Source of the DNA: Rosistilla ulvae
GTDB taxonomy: Bacteria > Planctomycetota > Planctomycetia > Pirellulales > Pirellulaceae
Assembly (NCBI RefSeq): GCF_007741475.1
Contig: NZ_CP036261.1
Coordinates: 6,635,798-6,699,797 of the forward strand
DNA: 64,000 nucleotides
Direction of reading: 5' to 3'
Shown: piece after piece, positions 1 through 8,466 of the stretch
Layout of the letters: every line of letters starts with the position of its first letter
How positions within the stretch are numbered: the stretch's first letter is position 1
Translations under genes and position numbers: made by a program
The notes under the pieces: model-generated
The model's input: the letters and a program-made list of their open reading frames with translations, nothing else
Databases searched by the model: none
Told to the model about the DNA's origin: nothing

Positions 1-612
1 CAGGCGGAACGCGATGTGAAACGTCGCCAACTGGCCTGCCTGGAAGAACTGCGGAATCGCGGCAACGCGACGCAGCGCGAGACCGATCGAGCCCTCGCCG
101 ATTTCGAATCGTCCGATGCGCGTTTGCAAGCGGTCAACGAAGACCTTGAGATCCGCCGTTTTGAATACGAACGGATTTTGGCGCAGATCGAAAAACGTGT
201 GCTGCAATCTCCCATCGACGGCGTGGTCGCAAACATCAACAAAGATGCGGGAGAGTTTGTCGCGCCGACCGATCCGATCGTGATGACGATCGTTCAACTG
301 GATATCGTGCACGCAATCTTCTCGCTGCCAATCTCGGCCGTCAGTACGATTGTGCCGGGCAAAACCGTTCGCATCACCGTCGGACTGAACGACCTGCCAG
401 CCCAGGGTGTGGTCGAAACGATCGCCCCGATCGCCGATGCCAAAAGCGGAACGGTCCGCGTCAAGATTCGGGTCGCCAACCAAAACGGACGCATCTTCAG
501 CGGCAGCAGTTGCCGCTGGGAGATCGATGCCAACACGCCCAATCAAATTACCAGCGTCCCCAGTCGCGGAGCGATCATGGCCGAAGCGACTCGCAAAATG
601 AAAGACCGTTAA
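1..612 (+). CDS. HlyD-type periplasmic adaptor subunit (5' end outside window)
   Basis: The reading frame is open from the first base, so the gene begins upstream; a GTG at position 16 is internal. What remains is the second half of a membrane-fusion (HlyD/RND adaptor) protein: a coiled-coil hairpin rich in Glu, Arg, Leu and Ala, the returning lipoyl half-motif (LQSPIDGVVANI, followed by a DAGEFV turn), and a beta-barrel segment ending in IRVANQNGRIFSG. Such adaptors bridge an inner-membrane transporter to the outer membrane. The next gene starts 23 bases downstream on the same strand and also encodes an HlyD-type protein, so they probably share an operon. The transporter partner is not visible here. 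The family call is firm, the substrate unknown. Confidence 0.85.
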   Translation, partial: QAERDVKRRQLACLEELRNRGNATQRETDRALADFESSDARLQAVNEDLEIRRFEYERILAQIEKRVLQSPIDGVVANINKDAGEFVAPTDPIVMTIVQLDIVHAIFSLPISAVSTIVPGKTVRITVGLNDLPAQGVVETIAPIADAKSGTVRVKIRVANQNGRIFSGSSCRWEIDANTPNQITSVPSRGAIMAEATRKMKDR

Positions 613-635
613 CGCCAGCAGAGCCACAAACCGGC

Positions 636-2075
636 ATGACTTCCATCGTCGACGCACCATCGAATCACCCCAACCGCGGCAGCCTGTCGACGGCCGGCGA
701 CGCCGCGCTTTCGAACGCGGGTGAATCGCAAGCGTTGGCGGCGGCGTTGGAGTTGATGATCCAAATGGAAGCGATCGACGATCTCTCGTCAGCGGCGACG
801 GTTGCCGGCGACGTGATCGGCGAATTCTGTCGGGCGCGGCGCGTTGTCGTCGGTTGGTGCCGCGACGGCACACCGACCTGCGAAGTGATCGCGGACACCG
901 ACGCGACGGCCCACGACCCCGCCAGTCCTATCCATCGCAAGCTGCAGTTCGCGTTGGACGAGATCATCGTTCGCGGACAGACGGTCGAACTGGACGTTCC
1001 GGCGAATCTTGGCCAACCCTCGGCAGCACTCGCTCTGCGCCAGTTTGCGTTGGCGGTCGGTTGCACCCGATTGGCCGGATCGCCGTTGTCCGATGCCACA
1101 GGTCAGATCCGCGGCGCGTGGTTGTTTATCGATCCGGCCGAACAGATTGAATCCTTGCGGACGCCCCATCTGATCGATTCGTTGTCGCGTCCCCTGGGCG
1201 CTCGTCTGGCAACGATCTGGCGTCATCAGCCGGGCAGACTCGATCGCGCCCTCGATACGGTTCGCGATGCGTTTACGAACAGCCGCGGATCGGTTGCGAT
1301 CGCTGGTTTGATGGTGCTGTTGTTTGTGATGCTGTTTCCTATCCACTACTCCGTTCGCTGCGATTGTGCATTGCAGCCGGTGTCGCGTCGCTTGATCGCC
1401 GCGCCGTTTGACGGATCGCTGGAAAAGTCGTTTGTCGACCCGGGCGACCTAATCGACGAGGGAGCCCTGTTGGCGCGGATCAGCGCCCGCGAACTGAACT
1501 GGGAACGGGCCGGGCTGCAGGCAGAACTGAATCGATCCAACAAAGAGCGACAGGTCTCGCTGGCCAAACAAGACTATGCAGCCTCCCAGATCGCGCAGCT
1601 CGATTCGCAACAGGTCGCCCACCGGTTGCAGATGATCGAAAGCCGGATCGAACATCTCGATATCCGCAGCCCCTTCAAGGGTGTTGTGATCGCGGGCGAC
1701 ATCAAAGAGGTCGAAGGGGCCCCGTTGGAAACAGGGCAGACGTTGTTCGAGATCGCCCCGGTCGGCGAGATGATTGTCGAACTGAGGATCCCCGAAGCGG
1801 ATTTTGCCTACGTGCGTCCTCAGATGCCAGTCCGTTTACGGTTGCATGCCTTTCCGACTCAACGGATCGAAGGCGTTGTGGAACAAGTGCATCCCAAAGC
1901 CGAAGTGATCGACAACGAAAATGTGTTTGTCGCCAAGATCCGCATCGAAGATCCGCACGCTATCTATCGTCCTGGAATGCATGGCCGCGCGTCGATCCAA
2001 TCCGATCGCCGACCGTTGATGTGGGTGCTGTTCCACAAACCATGGTCCGCGTTGATGATGTGGTTGGGGTGGTAG
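636..2075 (+). CDS. GAF domain plus HlyD-type membrane adaptor
   Basis: A protein of 479 residues from the ATG at 636, chosen because it follows the upstream stop by 23 bases; an upstream in-frame extension would overlap the previous gene. Residues about 30-190 look like a GAF-type domain (alternating helices and strands without enzyme motifs). A single transmembrane helix lies near residues 220-243. After it come a lipoyl half-motif (APFDGSLEKSFVDPGDLIDEG), a short coiled coil, the second half-motif (IRSPFKGVVIAGDIKEVEGA) and a beta-barrel domain. This is an inner-membrane-anchored adaptor with a probable cytoplasmic sensory or scaffolding domain. It stops 4 bases before the M50-HlyD gene, so the three genes look co-transcribed. 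The GAF assignment is inferred from pattern only. Confidence 0.78.
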   Translation: MTSIVDAPSNHPNRGSLSTAGDAALSNAGESQALAAALELMIQMEAIDDLSSAATVAGDVIGEFCRARRVVVGWCRDGTPTCEVIADTDATAHDPASPIHRKLQFALDEIIVRGQTVELDVPANLGQPSAALALRQFALAVGCTRLAGSPLSDATGQIRGAWLFIDPAEQIESLRTPHLIDSLSRPLGARLATIWRHQPGRLDRALDTVRDAFTNSRGSVAIAGLMVLLFVMLFPIHYSVRCDCALQPVSRRLIAAPFDGSLEKSFVDPGDLIDEGALLARISARELNWERAGLQAELNRSNKERQVSLAKQDYAASQIAQLDSQQVAHRLQMIESRIEHLDIRSPFKGVVIAGDIKEVEGAPLETGQTLFEIAPVGEMIVELRIPEADFAYVRPQMPVRLRLHAFPTQRIEGVVEQVHPKAEVIDNENVFVAKIRIEDPHAIYRPGMHGRASIQSDRRPLMWVLFHKPWSALMMWLGW

Positions 2076-2079
2076 TGCG

Positions 2080-4254
2080 ATGTCGATGGTGATCGATCGA
2101 TTGACGGACGACGTCAGCCAATGGAAACCACGGGTACTGCCCGAATTGGTATTCTGGCCCGATCGCGCGCGAGGCGCTATCCAATACCGCATCGAGGTCC
2201 CATCGCGGCACAAGTTCTTTTCGGTGGGGTATGAAGAATACGTCTTTATCTCGTTGCTGGACGGCAAGACCACGGTCGCTCAGGCCTGCGGCCGCGCTGC
2301 TCAAACACTGGGCCGCGAAGCGTTAACACAGCGGCAAGCCGATTCGATAACGCACTGGCTGCTGCAACAGCGAATGATCGTACTCGACGGCATGCAGCCC
2401 GCCTCTGCGACCGCTCCAGACAATGCGGAACGAGACTCGAAGACTGGTCTGTTAGACCGCTTCAATCCGTTTTGGATCAAGCTGCCATTGCCTCATGCCG
2501 ACCGTTTGATCCAATCGGCAGCGGCATTCCTGAAGCCGGCATTTTCACCGCTGGGAGTGCTGCTTGCCAGCTCGATCATGCTGATCGGACTATCGAGTGT
2601 CGCGATGCAGTGGGATCGGTTTATCGCATCGTCGACAGCGATTTTCAGTCCCAGCACTTGGATCGCCACCCTGATCACCTGGGTCGTGCTGAAGTTCATC
2701 CACGAACTGGGACATGCCGCCGCAGCCCGCCGCTTCGGATGCGAGACGACGCAAGTCGGGATCGTATTGGTGCTGCTGGCGCCGCTGGCATACGTCGACG
2801 TGACAACCAGCTGGCGGTTGCGTTCCCGCTGGCAACGGATGGCGATCGCCGCGGCGGGCATGTACGTGGAACTGACGATCGCGGCCATCGCGGCGATCGC
2901 GTGGGGATGGATCGATTCGCCCGCGGCCAGCTACCATCTGTTCAATGTGATCTTTGCGGCCAGCCTTTCGACGGTCTTCTTCAACGCCAATCCGTTGATG
3001 CGATTTGACGGGTACTATCTTCTGACCGATCTGTTGGAATTACCGAATCTAGCGGCCGAAGGGGGAATGGCGGTCCGCGACTTAACCAGTCAGCTGTTTT
3101 TCGGCCGCCGATCCGGACGCGATCGACACTATGGTTGGCGACGGGGAGTGGTGATTGGATACGGGATCGCATCGATCGTTTGGCGAATTCTAATCTGTAT
3201 CATGCTGGCGATCGCAGCGGCGTTTATGTTTCGCGGAGCGGGAGTCGTCTTGGTTGGCTTTGCGTTGCTGGCTTGGGTGATTCGCCCGACCGCCAGATTA
3301 TTTCAATCGCTGAACCGCCGAGCCTTGCAAGACCCTGCGGCGTGCGTTCGCGCGGCGGTTGTTGGCGGATCGTTGGCCGTGTTGGCTGGGACCGGAATAT
3401 TCTACATGCCGATATCGACGGCGATCGTCGCTCCGGCGATCGTCGATCAAGGGGAGGATGTTGTCGTCCGCAGCGCAGCGGATGGATTCGTCGTCGCCAT
3501 CGAAGTGGACGATGGGAAAACGGTCCAAGCGGGAGACGTCCTGATCCGGATACGCAACGAAGAACTGCAGCAACAACTGGTAGAACTGCAGACGGAAATC
3601 GGACAGTCGGAGATTCGCAAGCGGAGGGCCACGGAAGAGCAAGACGTTGCGGCTTCACAGATCGAACAAGAGACACGCCGTGCGTTGGACGACCGGATGC
3701 GTCAACTGCAAACACAGATCGATGGGCTGACCGTGCGAGCCCATCGCGATGGGACGATCGTGGCGCGACAGCTGGCCGATCGGCTGCAACAATACGTCTC
3801 CGAGGGGACTGAATTGCTGACGATCGCCGAACCGAGCGACCGTCGCGTGATGGCCTCGATCGCCCAACAGGACATCCGCCAAGTGGCAATGCAAATCGGC
3901 AAACCGGTGGAGATCAAATCGGCGGCGAGCAATCTGGCCACCGGCCGACTGGCTCACATACATCCATTGGCAACCACCAAGCTTCAGCATCCTGCATTAG
4001 CCGGAGTCCACAACGGACCTCTGCCGGTTCGCGCCGATCAGGATTCGGGATCGACAAAAAATGGGTATCGTTTACTCTCCCCCCGTTTTGCAGCAATTAT
4101 CGAGATCGACCCGGCACAGATCGACGACTTGCCCGTCGGACAAACGGTGCGGGTTCGAATCGGCCGCCGGTCGCTGACACTCTATCAACGCATCCAGGTT
4201 TGGTTCCAGCATCTGTTGGACACGCACCGCACCGCAGCGTCGGAGAAGGCTTAA
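2080..4254 (+). CDS. PqqD-like / M50 site-2-protease-like / HlyD fusion membrane protein
   Basis: A 724-residue multi-pass protein. Residues about 15-100 resemble the PqqD or peptide-chaperone winged-helix fold. The membrane part carries an M50 metalloprotease signature, HELGH at residues 208-212, and a second motif NPLMRFDG with Asp310, the usual third zinc ligand of site-2 proteases. After further membrane helices, residues about 455-724 form an HlyD module: lipoyl half (RSAADGFVVAIEVDDGKTV), a coiled coil, the second half (VRAHRDGTIVARQL) and a barrel. Both zinc motifs are intact, so proteolysis within or at the membrane is plausible. Known relatives combine a PqqD or peptide-binding part, M50 and HlyD in putative peptide processing-export systems; the substrate here is unknown. 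It ends the three-gene operon. Confidence 0.82.
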   Translation: MSMVIDRLTDDVSQWKPRVLPELVFWPDRARGAIQYRIEVPSRHKFFSVGYEEYVFISLLDGKTTVAQACGRAAQTLGREALTQRQADSITHWLLQQRMIVLDGMQPASATAPDNAERDSKTGLLDRFNPFWIKLPLPHADRLIQSAAAFLKPAFSPLGVLLASSIMLIGLSSVAMQWDRFIASSTAIFSPSTWIATLITWVVLKFIHELGHAAAARRFGCETTQVGIVLVLLAPLAYVDVTTSWRLRSRWQRMAIAAAGMYVELTIAAIAAIAWGWIDSPAASYHLFNVIFAASLSTVFFNANPLMRFDGYYLLTDLLELPNLAAEGGMAVRDLTSQLFFGRRSGRDRHYGWRRGVVIGYGIASIVWRILICIMLAIAAAFMFRGAGVVLVGFALLAWVIRPTARLFQSLNRRALQDPAACVRAAVVGGSLAVLAGTGIFYMPISTAIVAPAIVDQGEDVVVRSAADGFVVAIEVDDGKTVQAGDVLIRIRNEELQQQLVELQTEIGQSEIRKRRATEEQDVAASQIEQETRRALDDRMRQLQTQIDGLTVRAHRDGTIVARQLADRLQQYVSEGTELLTIAEPSDRRVMASIAQQDIRQVAMQIGKPVEIKSAASNLATGRLAHIHPLATTKLQHPALAGVHNGPLPVRADQDSGSTKNGYRLLSPRFAAIIEIDPAQIDDLPVGQTVRVRIGRRSLTLYQRIQVWFQHLLDTHRTAASEKA

Positions 4255-4941: not shown

Positions 4942-7900
4942 TCAAGCCAATTCTGCCGCGGGCTTACTTGGCCGGGCTTCGATCGGCAACATCGGATCAG
5001 CCCCCAATGTGCCGACCAAGTCCTTCAAGTACTGCGGGCTCGATGCGATCTCCAACTGCTGCTGGGCATACGCCAAGCGGGCATCCAGATCGATATCGCT
5101 GCGGAACGACGCGAGCGTATCGCGTTGCGAAGCGATGTATTCGATGTGACGTTTCCAGAGCGCAACATCACGCGTTTGTTTGGTCTGCAAACGCGCTTGA
5201 TACCAGTCGCTGGCCAACAGATATTCCTTGGTAAACATCTCGCGAACCACGGGGCTGTTGGCATCGTGACCATACCATTCGCCCGTCGCCATGATCGACA
5301 GGATTGCTTGAATTGGCGGGCTGGCCAATTGCCAAGTCCCATCGTCGAAGTACCGCTGTGCAACTTTCTGCTGAGCATCGGCGATGTGCCGCACGCCTTC
5401 GGCAAACGCCTCGGGATCTTGCAGTTCGGGCTGTAAAATCTCGTCGGAGAAGACTTTGCCGGGATTGTCGAACACGCGGCCGAAATACTTCACGACAAAA
5501 CGCTGCGTGATGCGATAGCCAAGCCGGCTGGCAGGAACATATTCTCCTTTGCTGTCCACGTAATCAGCGATCGGTTCCAACAGCGATTGCTCGATCATCC
5601 GCTGTGGATCGCGTTCCTTGGGCCCCAATCGGCACCAGATCTCGGGGATCAACAGGCTGATGTCGTGACCGACTTCGAACCGCGGACCGATGTGCCCCGC
5701 CGGCGTGCTGAAGCCGCTCAGCCCCGTCAAGATCATCGAGACCAAGACATCGTTCAGGTCGACCGTCGGAGGCATATTGTTGAACGGCCCCTTAGTCAAC
5801 GCTCCCTCGCTTCCCGCACCGGTCGTGCTTGGACTCTTGCCCGTCAAACTGCAGATGTAGTCCATGAACAGTTCGGGCAATTCCTGGTAGTGCAACGGCG
5901 AATAGACAGCCAATTGCTTGATCCCTTGTTCGGGATCGGGTGGATTGTTGCGGCGTCCGCTGAGCACCGCGGCGACCGGCATGTGGACCGGTTGATCCAT
6001 CGGCAGCGCCCGATGCAAACGCATCCCGCGATGGGCGACGTAGGTTTCCAGCGGAGACGTCAGATCGAGCCGATCCTGCAGATAGCGTGGGTTCTTCGAC
6101 GGTTTGCCGTCGATCATTCGCGGATGCGCCGAACTGACGACATACCCCGAATCCTGCTCTCCCGCTTCGATCAACATCTCTCGCATCGGGTCGCTGAACT
6201 CGCCCAACTCGATCGTGCTCGAAAGCATCGCGGCGATCGCAGCACGATCCTTCGGCTCATAGTTGCACAAGAAGTTCCCTGGACGCGACATGTCGAGTTC
6301 GGTCTGCTTATCGAGCCCACGATGAACGGCATCGTCGGGGCGTTGGAACAGCCGGAACTCACAGTTTTCGACAAACTTGTAACTTTCAGCGGGAGCAACC
6401 GCGGGGCCGACATCGCCAACACGGCGACCGGGAATCACGACGCTCGCGGTGATGTCATCTTCCATCTGAACCTTGGCCGCCGCGATGAAGTCCTGCCGCA
6501 GCTTGAAGGTCCGCCATTGGTCGCCATCGAGCCCCACCTTGAGGTAAGTGCCGACCAAGTTGCGGCGACCGTGCTTCAGTTGATGGCCGAGTTCGCCGTT
6601 AACGATATCGACGCTGAAATGTTCCCGCCAATTCCCTTCCCATTCCGGCTTCGAGAATCGTTTGATAATAAACGCCATCGCGTAGATATGATTCGGAATC
6701 GACGCCAACCAAGCGTTGTAGTCGTCGTTGTAATCGGGGGAGGGCGTGAGCAGTTTGATCATACTGCCCAGCGAGCGATTGGAATCGAGAACCTTCCGCG
6801 TCGACCGCTCGGAATAGCTCGGCTTTTGCTTGTATTCGGGATGCCAACGGCCGCTGTAGTCACGACTAAACAGCTCGTCGAGCGTGGCAAAATCACGCTC
6901 CAAATCCATCACAAAAATCGGCCCATACAGCATGTAATCACGCAGACTTTTGCTGATCTCGCTCTTGCCGCCGCCGCTGACCGTGCAGGGCTTGTGGCAC
7001 ACCAGGCCTTCCCCCGCGGTTCCAACAAGTCGCCACGACGGGGCCGCAGGGTGTTTATCCAGTCGGATCTTGTAACCGCTGGGGGCGATGTAGACGTTTT
7101 CGGGCAACAGCGGAATGCGCTGTTCCCGCCCATCGTGTTGCCATTTGACGCACTGCTCCAACAGCGTCACCTTGGCATTCTCCGGGATATAAATCACCTC
7201 GGGGTACAACCGATCGACCCCGTATCCCTCGGGTTTTACGTCGATGAATTCGCTGTAGTCGCGAGCGATATCTTCGAAGGTGCGATTGTTGTAACGTCGG
7301 CTGTCGACTTGAAACTCGTCCCCCAACGAATAACTGGCGAAGGCCATCGCTCCGCCGGCGTGCTCCTCTTCGACTCCGCCTAATAGGTTCGCCGAATAAC
7401 TGATCTGCGATTTGACTTCCTTCTTGCAGTAGCCGTAGTAGTTGTCGGCGATCAGCGTCACGACGACACCTTCGTCGGTCCGACAGACCGCTTTGAAAGG
7501 TGACCCGTCGTTGTAACATTCGCTTTCGTCTTCCCAACACATCCGATCGGCGATCTGTAGCGGCGTTGCTTCGCTGATATGCGGCAGCCCCAGTTCCTTT
7601 TTCGTCAGCCGCTCCAAATGAGGCGCCAAGATCACGCAACCTGTGTGGCCGGTCCAGTGTTCGACGTCCAAGCCGGCGTCGTTTTCGGGAACCAACGCGT
7701 CGCCAGCGTTGCCAAAGATCGACTCCACAAAATCGAGGTTACTGACCAAAGCACCAGGAGCGTAGAACCGCACCTCCATCCGCTTTTCGGTGCAGCAACC
7801 GGCAACCGCGGGGCAGACCAACGGCCGCAACAACAGACTGACAAAACAACGCGCCGGCGAATCGCTGTCGGCCGTGTAGGGCAGGCTCATCAATTCGTCG

Positions 7901-8466
7901 GGCGGAGACATCGCCGCCTGGAACAACTTTGCAAAGACCGCTTTGGGTACGGTCCGCTTGCTGCCAGCGATCGCCGGTCCCCCTTCGACGATATGAAAGG
8001 TCCCCGCGGTGGTACGGCGGTCGAAGCGCGGATTGTGCAGAACGCCATTGTGGACGCGATAGCTGTTCACGAAATCGTTTTCAAAGTGATCGCCGCGGGC
8101 CGGCAAGCTCAGCTCGCGGGCCACCCCGTGACGGTCCAAGACCAACGAGCTCGATGGCAAACGCAGCGGTTGATCGAGTTTCAGTTCGGCGAAATGACGC
8201 GTCAAAAAAGCTTCGATGCGACGATCGACCGGTGCGCGGTAATCCGCCAACAATCGGTTCTTCTCGCGCAGATTCTGCAGAAAGCCAACGGAATATTGAG
8301 CCAAGGCATGGTCGGTCGAATCGTCCTCGGGCGGCTGCAATCCGGCGGCAGCCAACTGCAACGCGATGTAGCTGTGAAGCTTGGCACGTTCGGCCGCGTC
8401 TGTGGCAATCGCACGATCCCAACCTAGAGATCGTTGGACAGGTTCCGAGCTATTTGGCGAAGGCAT
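4942..8466 (-). CDS. Pyrophosphate-dependent phosphoenolpyruvate carboxykinase (PPi-PEPCK)
   Basis: A 1174-residue cytoplasmic enzyme, about twice the size of ATP- or GTP-PEPCK but matching the PPi-type enzymes known from Propionibacterium and Entamoeba. From memory of that family, the following blocks correspond closely: HNPRFDRRTTAGTFHI, LDFVESIFGNAGDALVPEND, EHWTGHTGCVILAPHLE, ADNYYGYCKKEVKSQISYSA, the Gly-rich CHKPCTVSGGGKSEISKSL at residues about 490-508, LGSMIKLLTPS, QMEDDITASVV, SGRRNNPP, and a SLTGKSPSTTGAGSEGALTK block near the C-terminus. The expected reaction is reversible: oxaloacetate plus PPi gives PEP, phosphate and CO2, linking glycolysis or gluconeogenesis to the citrate cycle using PPi instead of a nucleotide. 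It stands alone, divergent from the haem-binding dehydrogenase gene. The ATG at 8466 has no in-frame competitor nearby. Direction of flux in vivo is unknown. Confidence 0.93.
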   Translation of the reverse strand: MPSPNSSEPVQRSLGWDRAIATDAAERAKLHSYIALQLAAAGLQPPEDDSTDHALAQYSVGFLQNLREKNRLLADYRAPVDRRIEAFLTRHFAELKLDQPLRLPSSSLVLDRHGVARELSLPARGDHFENDFVNSYRVHNGVLHNPRFDRRTTAGTFHIVEGGPAIAGSKRTVPKAVFAKLFQAAMSPPDELMSLPYTADSDSPARCFVSLLLRPLVCPAVAGCCTEKRMEVRFYAPGALVSNLDFVESIFGNAGDALVPENDAGLDVEHWTGHTGCVILAPHLERLTKKELGLPHISEATPLQIADRMCWEDESECYNDGSPFKAVCRTDEGVVVTLIADNYYGYCKKEVKSQISYSANLLGGVEEEHAGGAMAFASYSLGDEFQVDSRRYNNRTFEDIARDYSEFIDVKPEGYGVDRLYPEVIYIPENAKVTLLEQCVKWQHDGREQRIPLLPENVYIAPSGYKIRLDKHPAAPSWRLVGTAGEGLVCHKPCTVSGGGKSEISKSLRDYMLYGPIFVMDLERDFATLDELFSRDYSGRWHPEYKQKPSYSERSTRKVLDSNRSLGSMIKLLTPSPDYNDDYNAWLASIPNHIYAMAFIIKRFSKPEWEGNWREHFSVDIVNGELGHQLKHGRRNLVGTYLKVGLDGDQWRTFKLRQDFIAAAKVQMEDDITASVVIPGRRVGDVGPAVAPAESYKFVENCEFRLFQRPDDAVHRGLDKQTELDMSRPGNFLCNYEPKDRAAIAAMLSSTIELGEFSDPMREMLIEAGEQDSGYVVSSAHPRMIDGKPSKNPRYLQDRLDLTSPLETYVAHRGMRLHRALPMDQPVHMPVAAVLSGRRNNPPDPEQGIKQLAVYSPLHYQELPELFMDYICSLTGKSPSTTGAGSEGALTKGPFNNMPPTVDLNDVLVSMILTGLSGFSTPAGHIGPRFEVGHDISLLIPEIWCRLGPKERDPQRMIEQSLLEPIADYVDSKGEYVPASRLGYRITQRFVVKYFGRVFDNPGKVFSDEILQPELQDPEAFAEGVRHIADAQQKVAQRYFDDGTWQLASPPIQAILSIMATGEWYGHDANSPVVREMFTKEYLLASDWYQARLQTKQTRDVALWKRHIEYIASQRDTLASFRSDIDLDARLAYAQQQLEIASSPQYLKDLVGTLGADPMLPIEARPSKPAAELA

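Follow-up and report, generated by a model that had tools for sequence, protein, structure and literature searches.

A five-gene SecA2, HlyD and M50 protease operon of Rosistilla ulvae as a probable exporter of giant proteins with LEPR-XLL-type leaders

We have analysed a window of 64,000 bases (bases 6,635,798-6,699,797) of the complete, single-contig 7.48-Mb genome of Rosistilla ulvae, a member of the Planctomycetota, and in particular its first 4,254 bases, which hold the downstream part of an operon for HlyD-type adaptors and an M50 protease. In our reading, to which we assign a probability of roughly three in four, this five-gene operon is an exporter of giant surface or adhesin-like proteins of cadherin/Ig/RTX type that carry an N-terminal leader with an LExR motif (LEPR-XLL type). 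The gene set, the domain folds, the conserved M50 site and the linkage of leader and giant genes to the exporter were computed directly. The locus itself is not new, because the same gene set was published in 2015: the accessible part of that description places HlyD, GAF-HlyD and M50-HlyD genes, sometimes with OEP, around a secondary SecA_DEAD gene, with a spread over Planctomycetes, Verrucomicrobia, Proteobacteria and others (Kamneva, Poudel and Ward 2015; PMC4452313). The R. ulvae operon likewise has a truncated secondary SecA_DEAD gene beside HlyD, GAF-HlyD and M50-HlyD genes, the GAF assignment coming from family members. To this we add the PqqD/RRE domain, the conserved protease site, a proposed cargo family, and the occurrence of M50 loci in genomes where no second SecA was detected.

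A first-pass annotation, made from the window alone, had described three consecutive HlyD-adaptor genes separated by 23 and 4 bases, had noted that the window's left edge cuts the operon, and had suggested looking for an ABC or RND partner upstream. The frames, the ATG codons at 636 and 2080 and the Pfam matches (HlyD_D23/HlyD_3 in all three proteins, Peptidase_M50 in the third at E 2e-11) bear out the three genes and their spacing. Upstream DNA was read in a 20-kb stretch around the operon (L009, to which L009 coordinates refer), and it supplied the rest of the HlyD gene together with genes for a SecA2-like ATPase and a TolC-type channel, so that the full set on one strand is TolC-type channel, SecA2, HlyD, GAF-HlyD and PqqD-M50-HlyD, with 4-base overlaps at both upstream junctions (TolC-type OEP/SecA2 and SecA2/HlyD). 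The channel and the truncated SecA-like ATPase stand where an ABC or RND partner was to be sought; no RND, MFS or ABC partner was found among the operon genes and no ABC or RND partner among the scanned upstream neighbours, and a genome-wide ABC search was not made. The features are as follows (aa, amino acids).

L009:8935-11580, + strand, outside the window: TolC-type OEP, a frame of 881 aa, upstream of SecA2
L009:11577-13505, + strand, outside the window: SecA2-like ATPase, 642 aa, upstream of HlyD
L009:13502 (ATG, ~300 bases before the window), + strand: start of the whole HlyD adaptor, 302 aa, with a signal-peptide-like N-terminus, overlapping the SecA2 stop by 4 bases
1..612, + strand: 3' part of the HlyD/RND-type periplasmic adaptor gene, open at the window's left end
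636..2075, + strand: GAF-HlyD gene, 479 aa (GAF-like N-terminal domain, one membrane helix, MacA-like adaptor)
771..1145, + strand: approximate GAF-like region, residues ~46-170, placed by family GAF matches (none in the window's own protein) and secondary structure
1278..1361, + strand: single hydrophobic membrane segment of GAF-HlyD, residues 215-242, from hydropathy
2080..4254, + strand: PqqD(RRE)-M50-HlyD gene, 724 aa (open frame, Pfam, structure model)
2128..2385, + strand: PqqD/RRE-like domain, residues 17-102 (strands then helices in the model; family profile)
2644..3045, + strand: M50 core of site-2 protease type, residues 189-322 (Pfam; RseP 7w6y at Z 10.7)
2701..2715, + strand: HELGH metal/catalytic motif, residues 208-212, from the alignment
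3007..3009, + strand: Asp310 in the NANPLMRFDGYY motif, third metal ligand, from the alignment
3403..4203, + strand: periplasmic HlyD adaptor domain of the M50 protein, residues 442-708, from structure comparison

The genome of R. ulvae encodes nine divergent M50-HlyD genes, the window's included (the others at loci L010-L017), and GAF-HlyD-type and HlyD genes are present in eight of the nine loci, the exception being L014, which has SecA2. Three of the nine operons (L012, L013 and L017) adjoin a divergent giant gene with DUF4347. Cadherin or RTX repeats occur in the part seen of two of these giants, and the N-termini of all three share a motif (LEDRVMFD, LEQRLMLA, LEDRILYS), one of them also matching the NCBI LEPR-XLL model (NF012209). 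There are four DUF4347 genes in the genome, with open frames of 9529, 8182, 2543 and 2265 codons, three of them within ~7 kb of an M50 operon (p 3e-5 to 5e-5 for random placement within 8 kb). The fourth, at C1:3448199, encodes a protein of 2539 aa with cadherin, Ig, PKD and laminin-G domains and the leader LEDRVLFSATP. The window's operon probably serves cargo encoded elsewhere in the genome, and this lone DUF4347 gene is a candidate that leader similarity does not single out: pairing its protein with the operon on that basis was ambiguous, the best scores being spread over several clades. For 20 exporter/leader pairs a Mantel test gave r 0.53, with 0 of 2000 permutations as high, a result that joint inheritance alone could also give; one of the 20, L076, whose motif lies at residue 131 of 1193 aa, is perhaps a chance frame and is also among the 55 leaders described below.

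The same association is seen across the phylum. Among 244 genomes of Planctomycetota, DUF4347 was detected in 17 and M50-HlyD in 63, the latter being present in 14 of the 17 DUF4347-positive genomes as compared to 49 of the other 227 (p 6e-7) and in all 10 genomes with strong DUF4347 hits (E under 1e-20). Both M50-HlyD surveys (this one and that of the gammaproteobacteria below) scored no more than the four best candidates of each genome, which makes the exporter counts lower bounds; with that proviso 13 of 18 strong DUF4347 domains lie within 12 kb of an M50 gene, against ~0.25 expected. Those not near one comprise one in R. ulvae, one at a contig end (G051) and three in genome G234. Fourteen DUF4347 proteins of the phylum were read at their N-termini and 12 have the strict leader pattern, including the R. 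ulvae orphan and all three of G234. At L110 (G034:C403) a tandem array of three DUF4347 genes (676-695 aa), whose leaders are almost identical, lies ~5.5 kb away from an M50 gene. The domain itself retains a His in 59 and a Cys in 61 of 64 examples, a pattern that we take to be caspase-like, and DUF4347 directly after the leader of the cargo (e.g., L012:2-3985:-) may provide a second, self-processing step.

The gammaproteobacteria, the class to which the Neptuniibacter genome G250 belongs, show the association too. Of 275 genomes, 34 have DUF4347 and 37 have M50-HlyD, the overlap being 25 of 34 as compared to 12 of 241 (p 3e-19). In 11 of the 25 co-positive genomes no more than ~5 kb separates the DUF4347 domain from the M50 gene, and in two further ones (G516 and G352) a giant frame fills most of a longer interval between the two. 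Genes for GAF-HlyD, M50, HlyD and cargo are contiguous on one strand at L147, L149 and L150, with under 10 bases before the cargo gene at L150. A leader that goes with the exporter rather than with DUF4347 should be missing from DUF4347 proteins of exporter-free genomes. This specificity was examined at the N-termini of 30 DUF4347 proteins, each from a different genome (three of the 34 positives, G319, G438 and G504, lie outside the test, and G253, read separately, has the leader). In M50-positive genomes 21 of 22 proteins carry the leader (19 strictly and two as variants recognized by eye, VEPRLLFSAG and QERRILFSAD), as against two of eight in M50-negative genomes, where the other six have a Sec-type start or begin near DUF4347 itself (Fisher p 3e-4 when the variants are counted, 3e-3 when they are not). 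DUF4347 is rejected as the export signal because it occurs without the leader in M50-negative genomes (six of the eight proteins, with a Sec-type signal or none) and because leader giants without DUF4347 exist (L051 by Pfam; L059 and L082 by a three-sequence DUF4347 profile). NF012209 matches over its cut-off were found in 8 of 13 M50-bearing genomes picked from our loci and in 1 of 14 control genomes. The leader consensus is ExLExR[IV][LM][FLY][SD][AG] (NCBI "LEPR-XLL"), and 55 leaders chosen by pattern are conserved beyond that pattern: Glu stands two positions ahead of the Leu in 32 of them, and positions +7, +8 and +10 hold Ser/Asp, Ala/Gly and Pro in 49, 54 and 30, respectively. By hydropathy the leader does not look like a classical signal peptide.

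Giant genes beside the operon are also seen on plasmids. In a plasmid collection 76 records match the M50 protein, and six of these (H1, H2, H6, H10, H13 and H14), chosen rather than drawn at random, were opened. Four closed plasmids encode leader proteins of ~8,000-13,000 residues just upstream of the operon. In Pseudosulfitobacter sp. DSM 107133 a 38,757-bp gene annotated LEPR-XLL (12,918 aa) ends 31 bp before GAF-HlyD and is followed by GAF-HlyD, site-2 protease, SapC, SecA2 (annotated prepilin peptidase) and HlyD. In Methylosinus sp. C49 a 26,544-bp gene (8,847 aa; leader LEPRVLLNAD) precedes DUF3467, GAF-HlyD, PqqD-M50, SecA2, HlyD and TolC. A 9033-codon frame of Pseudohalocynthiibacter (leader variant YEPRLLLSAD) reaches the record's end and continues for 2547 codons in the same frame at its start, with DUF3467, GAF-HlyD, M50 and SecA2 after it. 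The annotated 8,148-aa calcium-binding protein upstream in Alisedimentitalea (L172, NZ_CP123586.1) has no leader at its annotated start, and an upstream in-frame start adds EQLEPRLLLAAD; the annotated start is probably downstream of the true one. In Rhodobacteraceae M382 a giant frame lies upstream with its start beyond the record's end, and for Rhizobium johnstonii the record start truncates the visible stretch, in which no giant was found. SapC-family genes (beside the exporter in L170 and next to the giant in L172) and DUF3467 genes (L168, L169) recur, and both families may be additional components; L168 and L170 have SecA2 annotated as a prepilin peptidase. Among other genomes, a 7,974-aa leader frame lies directly upstream of the operon in Neptuniibacter, and three further assemblies (Thiomicrospira, a Burkholderiaceae member and Oceanospirillum) each have a leader fragment that continues past the end of one contig and, on another, the end of a giant ahead of the operon, so that each pair may be one split gene; the Thiomicrospira leader frame (G246 contig C10, L119) runs for ~18,000 codons to the contig end.

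A scan of a collection of genomes from 84,980 species found at least 583 stretches encoding a relative of the M50 protein, the best 80 of which were kept as loci; its closest named relatives among the matches listed are from Planctomycetes. In these 80 loci, many of them on short contigs, GAF-HlyD lies immediately upstream of M50 in 70, and HlyD is present in 58, SecA2 in 34 and OEP in 25. The GAF-HlyD/M50 arrangement is, on these sequences, far beyond chance, and loss of synteny, which the first-pass annotation had named as a possible refutation, did not occur. The leader pattern concentrates in the largest frames outside the system itself, in 10 of 29 at >=1000 aa (some of these 29 being antisense chance frames) as compared to 3 of 89 at 600-1000, 3 of 224 at 300-600 and 4 of 254 at 100-300 aa. 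In a quick maximum-likelihood tree (SH-aLRT support only) the window's M50 protein falls in a clade of nine rows with SH-aLRT 100, and three of these (L026, L028 and L029) have DUF4347 genes in the fetched locus. The giant genes that lie upstream of the exporter at L047 and L050 have a C-terminal domain in common (SGHAEPGT / SGSASPGS ... PHHM); these giants, whose N-termini lie outside the loci, may be cargo with another signal.

The M50 protein joins three kinds of domain, and its structure model has a pLDDT of 89.7. The M50 core, residues 189-322, matches the site-2 protease RseP (7w6y, Z 10.7) and has HExxH and a third-ligand Asp in membrane helices, as is characteristic of the M50 family, and the C-terminal part is a MacA/AcrA-like adaptor (Z up to 17.0). 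H208, E209, H212 and D310 are invariant across the nine R. ulvae paralogues, which have only 22-34% identity to the window's protein, and all four residues are kept in 92 of 93 frames (the nine plus 84 of at least 650 aa from other genomes). The lone exception, L029, comes from a locus whose frames are broken and has proline in place of the second His. Most simply read, the protease is active. At the N-terminus, a profile of 25 pieces matches PqqD 3g2b (E 7.6e-5), the lasso-peptide protein TfuB1 6jx3 (E 0.013) and PqqC/D 5sxy (E 0.061) in the Protein Data Bank (PDB), and Pfam PqqD is matched by 6 of 55 whole proteins at E up to 0.01 and by 8 of 25 N-terminal pieces at E up to 0.1. Both PqqD and TfuB1 bind leader peptides. 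The window's own protein has no Pfam PqqD match, and its domain alone found no match among PDB sequences, so that the winged-helix PqqD/RRE assignment comes from the family profile; structure comparison of the whole model gave adaptors, biotin carriers and RseP and no PqqD chain among the matches listed, an absence that is uninformative. The first-pass annotation had thus been right about an intact M50 site (HELGH, Asp310), by Pfam and alignment, and its possible lack of conservation, named there as a second refutation, was not encountered; the fused PqqD domain stands at the level of the family and not by Pfam in the window's protein.

Much the same applies to the GAF-HlyD protein. Among 38 family members, 12 have a GAF match at E up to 0.01, and the window's own protein has no Pfam GAF match, so that the label given to it earlier holds for the family. 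The fusion, which had been called unusual, is indeed so, but it is the norm within this family and belongs to the gene set published in 2015 (PMC4452313). Its model (pLDDT 89.5) has one membrane segment at residues 215-242 and a MacA-like adaptor part, and the HlyD proteins in general score highest against RND-type adaptors and have MacA/AcrA/MexA folds. The window's SecA2-like protein retains Walker A, DEID and the helicase motifs, and nothing aligns solidly beyond about residue 731 of the 1232-aa housekeeping SecA; the absent part would, by the known anatomy of SecA, include the two-helix finger. Its best score against a SecA2 model is 499 bits, with a cut-off of 1085, which places it outside the Gram-positive accessory SecA2 family as modelled. 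There are six SecA_DEAD genes in all in the R. ulvae genome, and two SecA2-like genes (L018 and L019) have no M50 relative in the 20 kb around them that were read. A second SecA_DEAD match (E up to 1e-30) is found in 15 of 37 M50-positive and 4 of 238 M50-negative gammaproteobacteria. In many lineages SecA2 belongs to the machine, and it seems dispensable in some others.

From this material we infer a route by which the giants would be exported. The cytosolic RRE-like domain of the M50 protein would bind the leader; the cargo would cross the inner membrane at the M50 protein, with SecA2 spending ATP where it is present; the M50 site would cut off the leader, perhaps on the C-terminal side of the small residue conserved in [SD][AG]; and the three HlyD domains with the TolC-type channel would form a conduit to the outside. 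GAF-HlyD would be an anchored adaptor with a sensory or regulatory cytosolic domain. The earlier suggestion of a machine that recognizes, cuts and exports was probably right in kind, given the RRE-like domain, the conserved site and the adaptor/TolC conduit, and the peptide that it named as cargo gives way to what is most likely a giant multi-domain surface protein with a short leader.

A number of observations weigh against this exporter reading. No LExR motif occurs in any frame of at least 30 aa in the whole window and the 20-kb stretch, and no cargo gene with an LExR leader adjoins the window's own operon. A leader frame of at least 500 aa or DUF4347 was found in only 18 of the 80 loci, and a leader gene or DUF4347 in 10 of the 33 loci with at least 9 kb on both sides. 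Counting DUF4347 cargo only, 49 of 63 M50-positive genomes in the phylum and 12 of 37 in the gammaproteobacteria have no such match, and 5 of the 13 M50-bearing genomes lack a LEPR-XLL match over the cut-off. Two leaders of the phylum are loose variants (L108, LEELLMLSA; L113, MEERIVLDG), one DUF4347 protein from an M50-positive genome has a Sec-type start (L142), and two M50-negative genomes have the leader (L126 and L132, both fragmented assemblies in which the M50 gene was possibly missed). Shared ancestry of the genomes means that the p-values given above overstate independence. The usual targets of M50 proteases are membrane-spanning segments, and the hydrophobicity of the leader is no more than mild, with a median best 15-residue hydropathy mean of 1.1 (a value with no signal-peptide control set beside it). 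Finally, a second SecA was not seen in 22 of the 37 M50-positive gammaproteobacterial genomes, incomplete assemblies of which may hide copies; for this reason SecA2 is hardly a universal motor, and its candidacy as an obligatory one is weakened.

These 22 genomes also lend something to another view, in which the M50 and HlyD proteins only process or anchor giants that cross by SecYEG and the housekeeping SecA and leave by TolC, the operon being an outer-step exporter and maturase; a SecA2 that lacks all that follows about residue 731 of 1232 may, moreover, not drive a pore alone. We consider this unlikely, since the leader has no long hydrophobic core and six of the eight M50-negative DUF4347 proteins have a Sec-type start or none, as if the two signals were alternatives. 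A peptide exporter of RiPP or bacteriocin-like type (RiPP, ribosomally synthesized and post-translationally modified peptide), in which the RRE-like and M50 domains mature a small precursor as in daptide or YydH/LiaK systems and HlyD proteins export it, draws on the fact that RRE domains are RiPP parts and on the match of residues 38-399 to the daptide intramembrane metalloprotease model (E 2.1e-47), with a shorter part matching the YydH/LiaK model weakly. The daptide match, however, reaches 162 bits and is far below that model's cut-off of 300, no RiPP modification enzyme was found among the scanned genes (part of the neighbours), the visible cargo, where there is any, is giant, and frames of at least 30 aa in the window and in L009 are devoid of the LExR motif, so that a small peptide substrate is not supported; such a system is quite improbable here.

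Two further readings have still less to recommend them than a peptide exporter. The RND-type affinities and MacA/AcrA/MexA folds of the HlyD proteins would suit a small-molecule or metal efflux pump with adaptor paralogues, for which the adjoining giants would be incidental, and this we regard as very improbable in view of the absence of an RND, MFS or ABC partner among the operon genes and the statistical linkage to leader proteins. Regulated intramembrane proteolysis, with the M50 protein cutting a regulator and GAF as the sensor in envelope signalling, would make sense of the RseP-like core, the GAF region and the divergently oriented histidine kinase gene upstream of the operon, and it appears the most improbable of all for a protease that is fused to a periplasmic adaptor and linked with TolC and SecA2 (no search for a shared regulator was made). 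Downstream, at 4942-8466 on the - strand and convergent to the operon, is a gene for a 1174-aa protein with no Pfam or NCBIfam match, and PADLOC gave no match for three proteins, so that a defence role is not supported.

The 2015 proposal took SecA as the ATPase and the M50 protein as the pore, called the M50 similarity rather weak and the broader role "completely unknown", and, as far as its accessible part goes, named no cargo, leader or leader-reading domain (PMC4452313). Cargo and signal are apparently unreported in the open-access literature, whose reach leaves out all bioRxiv preprints and most subscription papers; DUF4347 and LEPR-XLL are absent from the titles and abstracts of the open-access papers that mention them in full text, and nothing in the accessible parts of PMC3482391, PMC8277102 and PMC11573180 links the leader to an exporter. 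LEPR-XLL (NF012209) and DUF4347 (PF14252) are names of sequence elements, the first carried N-terminally by the proposed cargo and the second often with it. Huge proteins abound in some bacteria, Planctomycetota among them, according to the part of PMC11573180 that is accessible. A widespread locus of obscure role would thus acquire a likely cargo and signal, and the LEPR-XLL/DUF4347 giants a likely exporter. The exit of huge chains from the cell thereby becomes testable: genes and signal have names, and the region of cleavage is predicted.

Each known system that resembles this one does so in part. C39-domain peptidase-containing ABC exporters read an N-terminal double-glycine leader and clip it with the exporter's own protease; the operon would work alike and differs in its protease (M50), its leader and its lack of an ABC domain. 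Daptide and YydH-LiaK leader proteases are of the same M50 family and have a related N-terminal region, whereas here there is a fused HlyD adaptor, the cargo is giant and the scores fall below the family cut-offs. Gram-positive accessory SecA2 systems dedicate a second SecA to large adhesins, while the present SecA2 misses the cut-offs of the SecA2 models and works, if it does, in a two-membrane envelope with other partners. Type I secretion shares the HlyD-type adaptors and the TolC-type channel, and in its LapA-type systems the giant RTX/adhesin cargo as well, but its inner-membrane component is an ABC transporter, in place of which the operon has an M50 protease fused to an adaptor. The signal of type I cargo is C-terminal and uncleaved, and on the cargo proposed here an N-terminal leader was found. 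Because no ABC transporter was found with it, we set the operon apart from type I secretion, as a new variant of TolC/HlyD export. Whether it should rank as a separate secretion class, ABC-free and served by a stripped-down or housekeeping SecA, in which an LExR leader would be read by an RRE domain taken over from peptide natural-product systems and removed by the two-membrane conduit's own site-2-type protease from proteins of 2,000 to over 12,000 residues, is a proposal that we make tentatively and hold at somewhat short of even odds.

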